Shown here: one piece after another, positions 25,401 through 31,400 of the stretch
Position numbering within the stretch: position 1 is the stretch's first letter
Layout of the letters: every line of letters begins with the position of its first letter
NCBI RefSeq assembly: GCF_964340395.1
Contig: NC_135551.1
Coordinates: 28,029,380-28,093,379 of the forward strand
Direction: 5' to 3'
DNA from: Glandiceps talaboti
Taxonomy: Eukaryota > Hemichordata > Enteropneusta > Spengelidae
DNA: 64,000 nucleotides
Position numbers and translations under genes: made by a program
Notes under the pieces: generated by a model
Databases searched by the model: none
What the model was told of the DNA's origin: nothing
Seen by the model: only the letters and a program-made list of their open reading frames with translations

Positions 25401-28400
25401 CAAGTGACACACATTCACTAGGAGAGAAGTGTTCACATAACAAGTGACAGTGACACACAAAACACTAGGAGAGAAGTGTTCACATAATAAGTGACACACA
25501 TTCACTAGGAGAGAAGTGTTCACATAACAAGTGACAGTGACACACAAAACACTAGAAGAGAAGTGTTCACATAACAAGTCACACACAAAACACTAGGAGA
25601 GAAGTGTTCACATAACAAGTGACACACAAAACATTCGGAAAGAACTGATTTTTGGACTAAATGCAAGCATCAAGGGATAATAATGTCTGTCCATGCTGCT
25701 TATCATCAATGACTTCCTTAAAATATTAACATAATGTGACACCTAAAATACACAATCTATGACTGACAATAGGGTCATAACACTACTGTAGTAATACTGA
25801 TGTATGGAATCACACTACTTGTAGTTGTACAACATACCTGTTTTTCTGTTGAACTAATGCAACCAGTAAATTGACAGTGTCCATGGCCAGTGCTTGTTCT
25901 GAACTCCACACTGATAAATTAGATAAAATCTTATCTACAAGAAATCCTATACTCCATCTACCTCCCTCTGTATCACGACCAAATGCAGCTGTTATTGGTA
26001 AACTCATCTGTCAAATTGAAAGTTTACAAAATATTCACATTTTACTTTGAAGTTTAATTACATACCTTGATACTTTTAATTTCAAGGAAGGTGACCTTAC
26101 ACTATTCTTTTCACCTCTGTTATAACAAGGTCTAGTATTTGTCTATCATCACCCTCTGTTCTTCGGTAAACTTTGTCTATTATCTGTCCTTCAGTAAATG
26201 TTGGCAAAGATGAGTCACACATACACACACAGTGACACACACAGTGACACACACACACACACACACACACACACACACACACACACACACACACACACAC
26301 ACACACACACACACACACACACACACGTGCCCACAACAAAACATATTTTGTATTGTCACGAAAACATCACTTTGCTTTACAAAATGACATTCAAATCATA
26401 CACAGTATATTTGATGAAAATAATCAACTGGCCAAAGATATCCCTTTTTTTACATAAAAGAAATCCGTTATCTGTACTAAAGTCAGTAACAATTATTCAC
26501 TTTGATACCAATAGACAGATTAAGAAATCATAAAAGACTGAATGACATTGGTCCAATCAAATAACTTGTAGATATCACATGACTATGTTATTAAGTAAAC
26601 ATTACCTGTGCATAGTATCTTTCATTTGGCAGTAAATATGATAAGCACCATCTCCGTAGAAACCACATTGTGGTAGCACCTACTTGTGGACTTAGTAATG
26701 AAGACAGCTGTGCATTCACAGCACGACGTTCTACTTCTGATAACCTGAATACTGCAGCTATTAATCTGACAATGACAAAAAATTCATTATGTTAAAATTA
26801 ATTGCACTGTAAAATGTAAATCTTTGAATAGCGTAAGATATACTTTGATTGAGGGAAATAACTTTGGGGCAAAAATTAGTTCTCACTATCCTGTTATATC
26901 CAGCACAGAGCCATACCAATAAACATTGGTATCAATTTACATGTAATTTCAGTTATGTTATCAATGATGTGATTACTGTGTACTGACTGTATCCTTGCAC
27001 CAAAGACATACAACTCATCATACCATTCATGAGCCAAAAAATATTGAATATATACTCTGGTCATTCTACGTCACAACAATGTGTGCCTATGTCAGTGGCT
27101 ATGCTGTGTTCGAAATATGAGTCAAAACATTCAAAATTACCATTACTTTGATATTACTGGAACTGGTTATATTTTCCTTCATTCTGCCGAAAAATACTCA
27201 TGACCTAAGGGTTGTCAGACAAAGACCCCTTAGGTCACTCCCATTTTCTTTGAATGAACAAAGAAAAATACTGGAGAATAACATCTAAATATCAAGGCTA
27301 TTATGTTCATGATAAGTCGTCATGGATGTAACTTTCATTCAAGAATAATGATTTCACTTACCTAACTACTTTATCACTACTTTGATCACTTCCTGGTATA
27401 GATGACACCTTTTCACCTGGTGATCCCAATACCCGAAGTGTTGTATCTATGTTGACATTTTGTGACTCTCCTATGGAATATTCCATTATGTCTGAAGGGA
27501 TAAGTGGGGTTTCTCCTTGGGGTTCATCAGCAAGGACAAATGCTACAGTGGAAAACAGAGAAGAGTTATACTTATTCAATCTCATATTATGGACTTGTAA
27601 AATTATCAATAGATTTAAATTGAGAATGTCACTAGATTTTGTACACACTATGTCAATTGCTTAAATTTCTAGTTGTGCCTAATCATCGGTACACTGATAG
27701 AAAACCATGTAATCAGTATACATGTACTCTGTAATAACCAATTGTTCATTTTCACAATGTCACTGCTGACTGGGTAGCCAATGTCATAAGCACTAACTTG
27801 TACTAATATCCCATATACCTGATATCAGACATCCCAGAGGTTAGTACAGCCAATGTATATTTTCCACACACTTAATATTAGTACATGTGTACTTCTCAGT
27901 ATACATTTCCTATATACCTGATATTAGAACTAGACAACAAAATTTCAAATATCTCCCACATATACAATACTATTAGTACTAGCCAGTGAATATTTCACAC
28001 ATACCTGATATCAATACTAGCCAGTGAATATTTCCCACATACCTGATATCAATACTAGCCAGTGAATATTTCACACGTACCTGATATCAATACTAGCCAG
28101 TGAATATTTCACACATACCTGATATCAATACTAGCCAGTGAATATTTCCCACATACCTGATATCAATACTAGCCAGTGAATATTTCCCACATACCTGATA
28201 TCAATACTAGCCAGTGAATATTTCCCACATACCTGATATCAATACTAGCCAGTGGATATTTCACACGTACCTGATATCAATACTAGCCAGTGAATATTTC
28301 ACACGTACCTGATATCAATACTAGCCAGTGAATATTTCACACATACCTGATATCAATACTAGCCAGTGAATATTTCACACGTACCTGATATCAATACTAG

Positions 28401-31400
28401 CCAGTGAATATTTCACACGTACCTGATATTAATACTAGCCAGTGAATATTTCCCACATACCTGATATTAATACTAGCCAGTGAATATTTCCCACATACCT
28501 GATATTAATACTAGCCAGTGGATATTTCCCACATACCTGATATCAATACTAGCCAGTGAATATTTCCCACATACCTGATATTAATACTAGCCAGTGAATA
28601 TTTCCCACATACCTGATATCAATACTAGCCAGTGAATATTTCCCACATACCTGATATTAATACTAGCCAGTGAATATTTCCCACATACCTGATATTAATA
28701 CTAGCCAGTGAATATTTCCCACATACCTGATATTAATACTAGCCAGTGAATATTTCCCACATACCTGATATCAATACTAGCCAGTGAATATTTCACACAT
28801 ACCTGATATCAATACTAGCCAGTGAATATTTCACACATACCTGATATCAATACTAGCCAGTGAATATTTCACACATACCTGATATCAGCATTAGCCAGTG
28901 AATATTTCCCACATACCTGATATCAATACTAGCCAGTGAATATTTCCCACATACCTGATATCAATACTAGCCAGTGAATATTTCCCACGTACCTGATATC
29001 AATACTAGCCAGTGGATATTTCACACATACCTGATATCAATACTAGCCAGTGAATATTTCCCACATACCTGATATCAGTATTAGCCAGTGAATATTTCCC
29101 ACATACCTGATATTAATACTAGCCAGTGAATATTTCCCACATACCTGATATCAATACTAGCCAGTGGATATTTCCCACATACCTGATATCAGTATTAGCC
29201 AGTGAATATTTCCCACATACCTGATATTAATACTAGCCAGTGAATATTTCCCACATACCTGATATCAATACTAGCCAGTGGATATTTCACACATACCTGA
29301 TATCAGTATTAGCCAGTGAATATTTCCCACATACCTGATATTAATACTAGCCAGTGAATATTTCCCACATACCTGATATCAATACTAGCCAGTGGATATT
29401 TCACACATACCTGATATCAATACTAGCCAGTGAGTGAATATTTCCCACATACCTGATATCAATACTAGCCAGTGAATATTTCCCACATACCTGATATCAA
29501 TACTAGCCAGTGAATATTTCCCACATACCTGATATCAATACTAGCCAGTGGATATTTCACACATACCTGATATCAATACTAGCCAGTGAATATTTCCCAC
29601 ATACCTGATATCAATACTAGCCAGTGAATATTTCACACATACCTGATATCAATACTAGCCAGTGAATATTTCCCACATACCTGATATCAATACTAGCCAG
29701 TGAATATTTCCCACATACCTGATATCAATACTAGCCAGTGAATATTTCCCACATACCTGATATCAATACTAGCCAGTGAATATTTCACACATACCTGATA
29801 TCAGCATTAGCCAGTGAATATTTCCCACATACCTGATATCAATACTAGCCAGTGAATATTTCCCACATACCTGATATCAATACTAGCCAGTGAATATTTC
29901 CCACGTACCTGATATTAATACTAGCCAGTGAATATTTCCCACATACCTGATATCAATACTAGCCAGTGAATATTTCCCACATACCTGATATCAATACTAG
30001 CCAGTGGATATTTCACACATACCTGATATCAATACTAGCCAGTGAATATTTCCCACATACCTGATATCAATACTAGCCAGTGAATATTTCACACATACCT
30101 GATATCAATACTAGCCAGTGAATATTTCCCACATACCTGATATCAATACTAGCCAGTGAATATTTCACACATACCTGATATCAATACTAGCCAGTGAATA
30201 TTTCCCACATACCTGATATCAATACTAGCCAGTGGATATTTCCCACATACCTGATATCAATACTAGCCAGTGAATATTTCCCACATACCTGATATCAATA
30301 CTAGCCAGTGAATATTTCACACATACCTGATATCAATACTAGCCAGTGAATATTTCCCACATACCTGATATCAGTATTAGCCAGTGAATATTTCCCACAT
30401 ACCTGATATTAATACTAGCCAGTGGATATTTCCCACGTACCTGATATTAATACTAGCCAGTGGATATTTCACACATACCTGATATTAATACTAGCCAGTG
30501 AATATTTCCCACATACCTGATATCAATACTAGCCAGTGAATATTTCCCACATACCTGATATTAATACTAGCCAGTGGATATTTCCCACGTACCTGATATC
30601 AATACTAGCCAGTGGATATTTCCCACATACCTGATATTAATACTAGCCAGTGAATATTTCACACATACCTGATATCAATACTAGCCAGTGAATATTTCCC
30701 ACGTACCTGATATTAATACTAGCCAGTGAATATTTCCCACATACCTGATATCAATACTAGCCAGTGAATATTTCCCACATACCTGATATCAATACTAGCC
30801 AGTGGATATCTTCATATAAATCATCCAATACAACATCACTCTGTGAAACATTATGTGCACCATGACTCATTGCTTGCTGCTGAAGTCTCTGTAACTGACC
30901 ATGTAACCTATTAACTCTTTCTTCTAATAACCTACAAAGAAAGTGTTCAGATTTGATACATTCAGATGTATCCATTTTCATTTGTGTGTGTGTACATGTG
31001 TCTATGTCTATGTATATTTATGTATGTATGTGTGTGTGTGCGTGTGTGTGTGTGTGTGTGTGTGTGTGTGTGTGTGTGTGTGTGCTTGCATGTGTGAAAA
31101 TTTTTGAACAATGTCCTGGAATGCTTTTCTGCAATTCTTTGAAAATCAAGACTTTCCCCCTAATCATGACGGCAAGAAAAATCCATAGAAACATAGTACT
31201 AGACACTTGAATCATCTTTCCATGGTACATAGCTATTGTGTAATGCAAGAAACAACAGAAACCTTGAATTTTAAGCTCAGGGTCAAAGTCAAATGTACAG
31301 ACATGATATTTCTAGACATTTCTTACCTAGTTAGTAGTTGTATACTATGTTGGGGTATGACCCTCGCTAAGCAACCAATGCTACACAGCTGGTCATTAAA

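Follow-up and report, generated by a model that had tools for sequence, protein, structure and literature searches.

A donor-bearing minisatellite in intron 12 of the Glandiceps talaboti XPO4 gene, and similar arrays elsewhere in the genome

Intron 12 of the Exportin-4 gene (XPO4) of the enteropneust Glandiceps talaboti is largely made of a tandem array whose 38-bp unit contains the 5' splice site (donor) of exon 12, so that this donor is present 74 times in all. This array is a striking example of a minisatellite, albeit of a known kind, and the part that we consider worth following is the abundance of such arrays in the same genome. The gene lies in a stretch of 64,000 nucleotides (contig NC_135551.1 of RefSeq assembly GCF_964340395.1, positions 28,029,380 to 28,093,379 of the forward strand), here called the window and numbered from its first letter. 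A sequence-only reading of the window had described about 75 copies of the end of exon 12 plus its donor, running through almost the whole intron, and had added that no such case was known. The description has stood up well. The claim of novelty has not: the "mirages" of lancelets (PMC3087553, PMC3902484) and the variable number tandem repeat (VNTR) of human ABCA7 (PMC5954066) are, as these papers present them, of the same kind, and further arrays are found in the genome of Glandiceps itself.

Tandem Repeats Finder (TRF) places the repeat at 27977-30809, with a period of 38, 74.4 copies and 95% matches. Read on the minus strand, the unit of the array (27967-30782) is GTATGTGGGAAATATTCACTGGCTAGTATTGATATCAG and consists of 27 nt of exon followed by 11 nt of intron; the tandem repeat therefore spans the exon-intron boundary, with 27 exonic bases inside it, copy 1 begins at 30782, which is the first base of the intron, and the first GT of the array is the donor of exon 12. 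Ungapped copies within 8 substitutions number 73 and fall into 15 different forms, the commonest form being represented by 23 identical copies; an additional copy, of 42 bp, has a 4-bp insertion (29452-29411), and when the tail of exon 12 itself is included the exon end is present 75 times. The 74 donors (true one included) comprise 64 CAG/GTATGT and 10 CAG/GTACGT, the slash marking the end of the exon, and are spaced by 38 bp in 72 instances and by 42 bp in one. The array covers 2816 of the 3240 bases of the intron (87%), and past 27967 its copies decay over about 170 bases, to about 27790. A search of the 590-Mb genome with the exact unit gave at least 23 places, all of them in this array. 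The load of decoy donors in intron 12 is not due to chance, since 19 of the 22 introns of XPO4 are without any such donor by an 8/9 rule; intron 12 has 73, intron 10 has one and intron 16 has two. Higher-order blocks of repeats were not seen, as the identity between copies at lags 1-12 never exceeded the 99% shuffle bound (lag 6 is at the bound, 0.242 and 0.242).

The identity of the gene and the position of the exon end, both proposed earlier, find support in the protein. In our reading XPO4 runs on the minus strand from 41736 to 19445 and has 23 exons, which join into an open reading frame of 3450 nt (1149 residues). This protein aligns to the Exportin-4 of PDB 5dlq, which we take to be the mouse protein, over residues 5 to 1149 with 1330 bits, and the gaps in the alignment lie away from the junction of exons 12 and 13. 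At this junction HWLVLISAFVLADE stands against HWLILVTGYLLADD in an ungapped stretch, the residues HWLVLIS on one side and AFVLADE on the other facing their counterparts without interruption. Because the protein is colinear with Exportin-4 across this junction, the end of exon 12 is placed at the first donor, at 30782, and intron 12 extends from 30782 to 27543 (minus strand, 3240 nt). The colinearity, as seen from the DNA, exists only on the assumption that the first donor is used.

Past the first donor the frame reads GMWEIFTG and then a stop (TAG), 23 nt after this donor, and every later donor meets the same stop, much as had been predicted (MWEIFTG, then TAG). The first donor should be the productive one, and it is fair to infer that an accurate choice of donor is required in intron 12. 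The donors of the array are near-equal in strength. One candidate explanation, that the first donor is stronger, is rejected: its duplex energy with U1 (-9.5 kcal/mol) is common to 45 of the 73 ungapped copies, while 23 copies do better (-9.9 or -10.3) and only 5 do worse. Another, that RNA structure hides the later donors, is rejected as well, because the accessibility predicted for the copies is low throughout and its values overlap, the first donor ranking 13 of 73. The first donor is set apart by its position alone (it is the first after the exon), and nothing intrinsic marks it. Extra conservation of the donor columns was not seen either: among 72 copies, 1 of the 9 donor columns is variable, against 6 of the 29 other columns (Fisher p = 1). 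The copies consequently bear no sign of selection, since the donor columns are kept no better than the rest of the unit, and their variability fits homogenisation without selection, as expected.

We think, with a probability of about 0.7, that the unit of a minisatellite simply happens to contain the donor of exon 12, that the array has no special job, and that it is tolerated because the nearest donor pairs with the acceptor of exon 12. The history would then be a tandem duplication of a 38-bp segment covering the donor (27 nt of exon and 11 nt of intron), after which the array would have expanded and been homogenised by unequal exchange or slippage. In the cell, the acceptor of exon 12 would be paired with the nearest downstream donor, through exon definition and the rule that what is transcribed first is bound first; the exon would be defined with its adjacent donor as soon as this is transcribed, and the later copies would be spliced out as part of the intron. 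If a later donor were chosen now and then, at least one unit would be kept, and the TAG that follows GMWEIFTG would presumably send such RNA to nonsense-mediated decay. With long alleles, exon 13 may at times be skipped as well, and the loss of its 181 nt would shift the reading frame. By analogy with ABCA7 (see below), one might expect about 2% of one-unit retention at intron 12, and possibly marked skipping of exon 13.

Arrays of donors are not confined to this gene. Three CAGGTAWGT motifs with gaps of 10-40 have 1593 matches in the 590 Mb, against 406 for the reversed pattern, and CAGGTGAGT has 273 against 127; these counts are of matches, not of arrays. Among the matches listed, the donor pattern forms 7 arrays on contigs C1-C2 (up to C2 31.29 Mb), and the reversed pattern forms 2 there. 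The flanks were read at 15 loci (L041-L055, that is, the 7 CAGGTAWGT arrays and 8 GTGAGT arrays among the matches listed), and at nine of them the first copy of the array coincides with the end of an open coding exon, with significant homology in six cases, weak homology in two and an open frame only in one (Table 1). No coding exon is visible ahead of the array in the flanks read at L044, L050, L051, L052 and L053 (the last a near-simple repeat). The size of the XPO4 array is not exceptional, as L047 has an array of the same period, 38 bp, with 81.1 copies by TRF. At L049, pieces of exons align in order to TRRAP (Protein Data Bank) across three array-bearing introns, which, although the junctions are not base-resolved, points to the use of the first donor there too. 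L049, L045 and L055 each carry more than one donor array in a stretch of 10 kb, the units being unrelated, as is also the case in XPO4; one more donor array at L055 (9740-9892) stands outside the tally of exon ends.

A wider sample of 232,515 bases (the window, two flanks and L041-L055; GC about 36%, or 0.350 counting 5,000 N) contains 77 arrays of period 20-150. Leaving out the 15 arrays through which the sequences had been selected (that of the window and those of 14 of the 15 loci; the one of L051 was kept), 62 units remain. A donor at least as strong as the median XPO4 donor is present in 5 of them, against 0 in reversed and 0.17 in shuffled units, while acceptors are present in 4, against 6 and 6.4; of the 5 donor units, however, two are from XPO4 (exons 10 and 16) and two from TRRAP, so that they do not represent independent genes. 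With the looser 8/9 rule 7 of the 62 units qualify, and four of these (one at L045, two at L049, one at L055) start at exon ends, the exons being named by alignment for TRRAP and by eye for laminin and thrombospondin type 1 (TSP1). The acceptor pattern TTTTNCAG, taken three times, has 2496 matches in the genome against 1254 for its reverse, about twofold, and the first 100 matches listed include many scattered singles and pairs and a few long arrays; an asymmetry of donors over acceptors is thus not proven genome-wide. In the wider sample only donors are in excess, but the acceptor motif is weak (6.4 by chance), the loci L041-L055 were picked for their donor arrays and two of the five cases are in TRRAP. 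We would propose only tentatively, and with more doubt than confidence, that donor minisatellites at exon ends are a genome-wide class, with several per gene (XPO4, TRRAP, a laminin-like and a TSP1-like locus), and that they are kept more readily than acceptor arrays because the spliceosome is tied to the donor next to the exon, however many equal donors follow it.

XPO4 itself offers further arrays that bear on this question. At the end of exon 10, a second donor array again includes the exon tail and the donor; use of its donor 2 would add 19 residues in frame, and donor 3 runs into a stop. The repeat after exon 16 has a modest likeness to the exon's own donor (score 26, shuffle maximum 22), and the array delimited by TRF does not overlap that donor. 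The one after exon 9 is an old or doubtful case: there is no 8/9 donor in its intron, no excess in the test of donor-likeness and no overlap with the donor. Intron 7 harbours a donor-free array of 38 bp (33952-34296, minus strand, 9.1 copies, 100% matches) 67 bases past the exon 7 donor, which looks like a recent expansion. If the nine arrays of XPO4 were placed at random, 0.46 would be expected to fall on a donor, and 2 are observed to overlap one (p = 0.075), so that special targeting of donors is not required; most of the observations are explained by random placement if arrays that change the mRNA are removed.

Several points nevertheless weigh against an idle minisatellite that splicing simply ignores. 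SRSF1 is reported to favour the intron-proximal of competing donors (PMC5585400), which would predict the use of a later copy and not of the first. The array of ABCA7 shows that such a repeat need not be harmless, since skipping of exon 19 reaches 12-45% depending on the tissue and rises with the length of the array (PMC5954066); for this reason we have lowered our confidence in harmlessness from 0.75 to 0.7. The excess of donors in the wider sample of array units is strong (5 of 62), and if the cases of exon 16 and exon 9 are counted, random placement within XPO4 becomes unlikely (P for at least three, 0.009; for at least four, 0.0009). Both the donor excess and these odds leave room for a gain or retention that is specific to donors.

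The most direct form of such a gain would be mutational, 5' splice sites being duplicated more often in this lineage (through R-loops or pausing, for instance). The donor-bearing units of the wider sample, with no corresponding excess of acceptors, and the abundance of triple-donor matches in the genome are what one would expect from it; selection alone could suffice, however, because arrays in exons or on acceptors alter the mRNA and get removed. The positions of the XPO4 arrays could also be due to chance (p = 0.075), the acceptor pattern is likewise above its control in the genome, and an acceptor, that of exon 4, has been duplicated once in intron 3. We regard this hypothesis as rather improbable. 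One could also imagine that the array is functional, its dozens of U1 sites regulating the output of XPO4, either by blocking premature polyadenylation in a long intron or by diverting splicing to nonsense-mediated decay. The contrast between 73 strong decoy donors in intron 12 and none in 19 of the 22 introns would agree with this, suppression of premature polyadenylation is an established activity of U1 (PMC3826338), and longer ABCA7 arrays do increase skipping of the next exon (PMC5954066). A function fits poorly with donor columns that lack excess conservation, with the occurrence of arrays of unrelated units in unrelated genes, and with lancelet mirages that are reported not to disturb regular splicing (PMC3087553), and we find it unlikely.

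The sequence-only reading had also compared the units with the zero-length exons of recursive splicing, and here only one half of the comparison survives. AG does stand directly before GT (AGGT occurs 76 times between the first donor and the end of intron 12), and any donor joined to any later AG would give back the exact exon end, so that the array might be consumed stepwise, unit by unit, each AG/GT acting as acceptor and then as donor, with the same junction restored every time. As an acceptor, however, the unit is poor: it lacks a pyrimidine tract (the pyrimidine fraction at -20 to -5 is 0.50, whereas the 22 acceptors of the gene average 0.72 and none is below 0.56), and its score of -1.7 is below all 21 U2-type acceptors of XPO4, from which the acceptor matrix was built, each being scored when left out in turn. 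Recursive splicing in intron 12 is thus unlikely, and stepwise removal of the whole array strikes us as very improbable. Smaller still, in our opinion, is the chance that the copy number or the whole array results from misassembly. Long tandem arrays are often mis-sized, and a lancelet globin mirage was apparently misassembled in the draft genome (PMC3087553); against this stand the 15 distinct forms of the unit and the decayed edge of the array, the location on a 32.3-Mb contig of a 47-contig assembly, and the unrelated arrays of like kind at other loci.

Table 1. Features of XPO4 (positions in the window) and donor-array loci elsewhere in the genome (positions within the locus; values in brackets belong to the homology named)
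Feature	Positions	Strand	Remark
XPO4 exon 12, ending ...HWLVLIS plus 1 nt (phase 1)	30783..30931	-	open frame, colinear with Exportin-4 (PDB 5dlq)
27-nt exon tail, exonic part of the unit (27 nt exon + 11 nt intron)	30783..30809	-	array overlaps 27 exonic bases
First donor GTATGT, implied by protein colinearity	30777..30782	-
38-bp donor array, 73 ungapped copies and one 42-bp copy	27967..30782	-
Decayed copies, 3' edge of array, two with CAGGTATAT (27917, 27818)	27790..27966	-
Intron 12 remainder, no recognisable copies, acceptor ...ttttccactgtag	27543..27789	-
XPO4 exon 13, 181 nt	27362..27542	-
Second donor array, end of exon 10, 57-bp unit (19 codons), 4.1 copies	31597..31829	-	includes exon tail and donor
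42-bp repeat after exon 16, two further CAG/GTGAGT donors (24996, 24954)	24927..25037	-
72-bp repeat after exon 9, unit aligns to exon 9 donor region	32165..32407	-	old or doubtful case
L041			only a possible 35-nt exon before array
L042			laminin IV B (2.8e-20)
L043			isoleucyl-tRNA synthetase (3.5e-7)
L045, donor arrays	2481-3456, 4596-4834		laminin EGF (1.1e-18)
L046			DHTKD1-like, weaker (0.037)
L047			DEAD-box, weaker (0.048)
L048			open frame, no Pfam match
L049, donor arrays	338-1314, 3902-4354, 7900-8284		TRRAP (1.9e-14)
L054			amine oxidase (3.7e-10)
L055, donor arrays	4851-6087, 8371-9422		thrombospondin type 1 (2.3e-11)

Some other features were noted in passing. Intron 6 of XPO4 (36300-34474, minus strand) starts with ATATCC, and its last bases are TTTTTCCTTGACTATAATCACTAG followed by AG; by the consensus of that class it appears to be a U12-type AT-AG intron, and the frame, judged by eye, fits the AG end and not the AC immediately upstream. 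In intron 3 (38430-38386, minus strand) the acceptor, together with the first bases of exon 4, is present a second time shortly before the real acceptor; as splicing to this upstream copy would, by eye, give a TGA after a single codon, it is the downstream acceptor that must be used. A 56/62-bp tandem repeat (19190-19414) begins about 30 bases past the stop codon of XPO4, in the presumed 3' untranslated region. Inspection by eye of the open frames alone suggests that the window also contains two alpha-tubulin-like genes, oppositely oriented, at 53348-55867 (minus) and from 62503 (plus). Elsewhere in the assembly, contig C40 has COX1 at 12741, 28176 and 43611, with a spacing of 15,435 bases and 13 TGA in each, as if the mitochondrial genome were repeated three times on it. 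Searches of the genome for the GFP family, of which lancelets have genes, and for innexin gave no match, a result that does not show either family to be absent.

What makes these arrays of interest is that 74 near-identical donors after one exon, together with other arrays of varied units and copy numbers, offer a direct way to test what decides between donors of equal strength, the candidates being the order of transcription, exon definition and closeness to the acceptor. If the genome-wide class is real, the whole genome would be a natural experiment on the choice of 5' splice sites. Since the comparable arrangement in human ABCA7 is tied to the risk of Alzheimer disease, it would also be useful to learn how an animal lives with such an array. 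No genome-wide survey of arrays of this kind was found in the literature searched, subscription papers being mostly outside its reach.

Among comparable systems, a model of intron gain proposed by Rogers invokes the tandem duplication of AGGT-containing segments, with a fission yeast case of several 24-bp copies (PMC4974935). The XPO4 repeat resembles it in that the duplicated segment holds AG/GT, and differs in that the array sits inside an intron which ends in copy-free sequence and a normal acceptor: intron 12 is not itself a duplicated segment with its own AG and GT, as the acceptor at 27543 lies about 247 nt past the last decayed copies. A minisatellite with multiple donor sites, in an interferon-induced transcript, is reportedly announced in the title of a 1995 paper by Turri, Cuin and Porter (Nucleic Acids Res 23:1854), and counts as another precedent for the XPO4 array; the gene is said to be 6-16 (IFI6), and the unit to be of 12 bp.

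The closest relatives that we know are those of lancelets and man. In amphioxus, minisatellite-like tandem duplications of exon-intron boundaries were described in the globin genes BflGb6 and BflGb9 under the name of "mirages", taken from work on Adh3 with units of 10-72 bp; RT-PCR (reverse transcription PCR) suggests regular splicing, the repeats are unstable in length, and a model of intron gain is discussed (PMC3087553). Troponin C and PGBD5 were later added as cases (PMC3902484). Like the mirages (units of 10-160 bp), the XPO4 array is a tandem duplication of a boundary with AG/GT in many units; regular splicing is apparently undisturbed by mirages, and their copies are homogenised except at the edge of the cluster, just as the XPO4 array decays at its edge. 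Unlike them, it has 74 units, where the globin case has 6 and 3 on two haplotypes, and either boundary may be duplicated in lancelets, whereas donors prevail here, in a small and partly selected sample. In human ABCA7, a 25-bp VNTR of 12-427 units occupies intron 18, its first GT being the donor of exon 18; in the tissues studied, the second donor is used, with one unit kept, at about 2% and a cryptic acceptor of exon 18 at about 14%, neither varying with the size of the array, while skipping of exon 19 (12% in cell lines, 29% in hippocampus, 45% in BA10) increases with it, and the polymorphic VNTR is linked to Alzheimer risk (PMC5954066). The two arrays share the feature that their first GT is the donor of the preceding exon; they differ in that the ABCA7 unit is described as immediately flanking exon 18, whereas 27 of the 38 bp of the XPO4 unit are copied exon.

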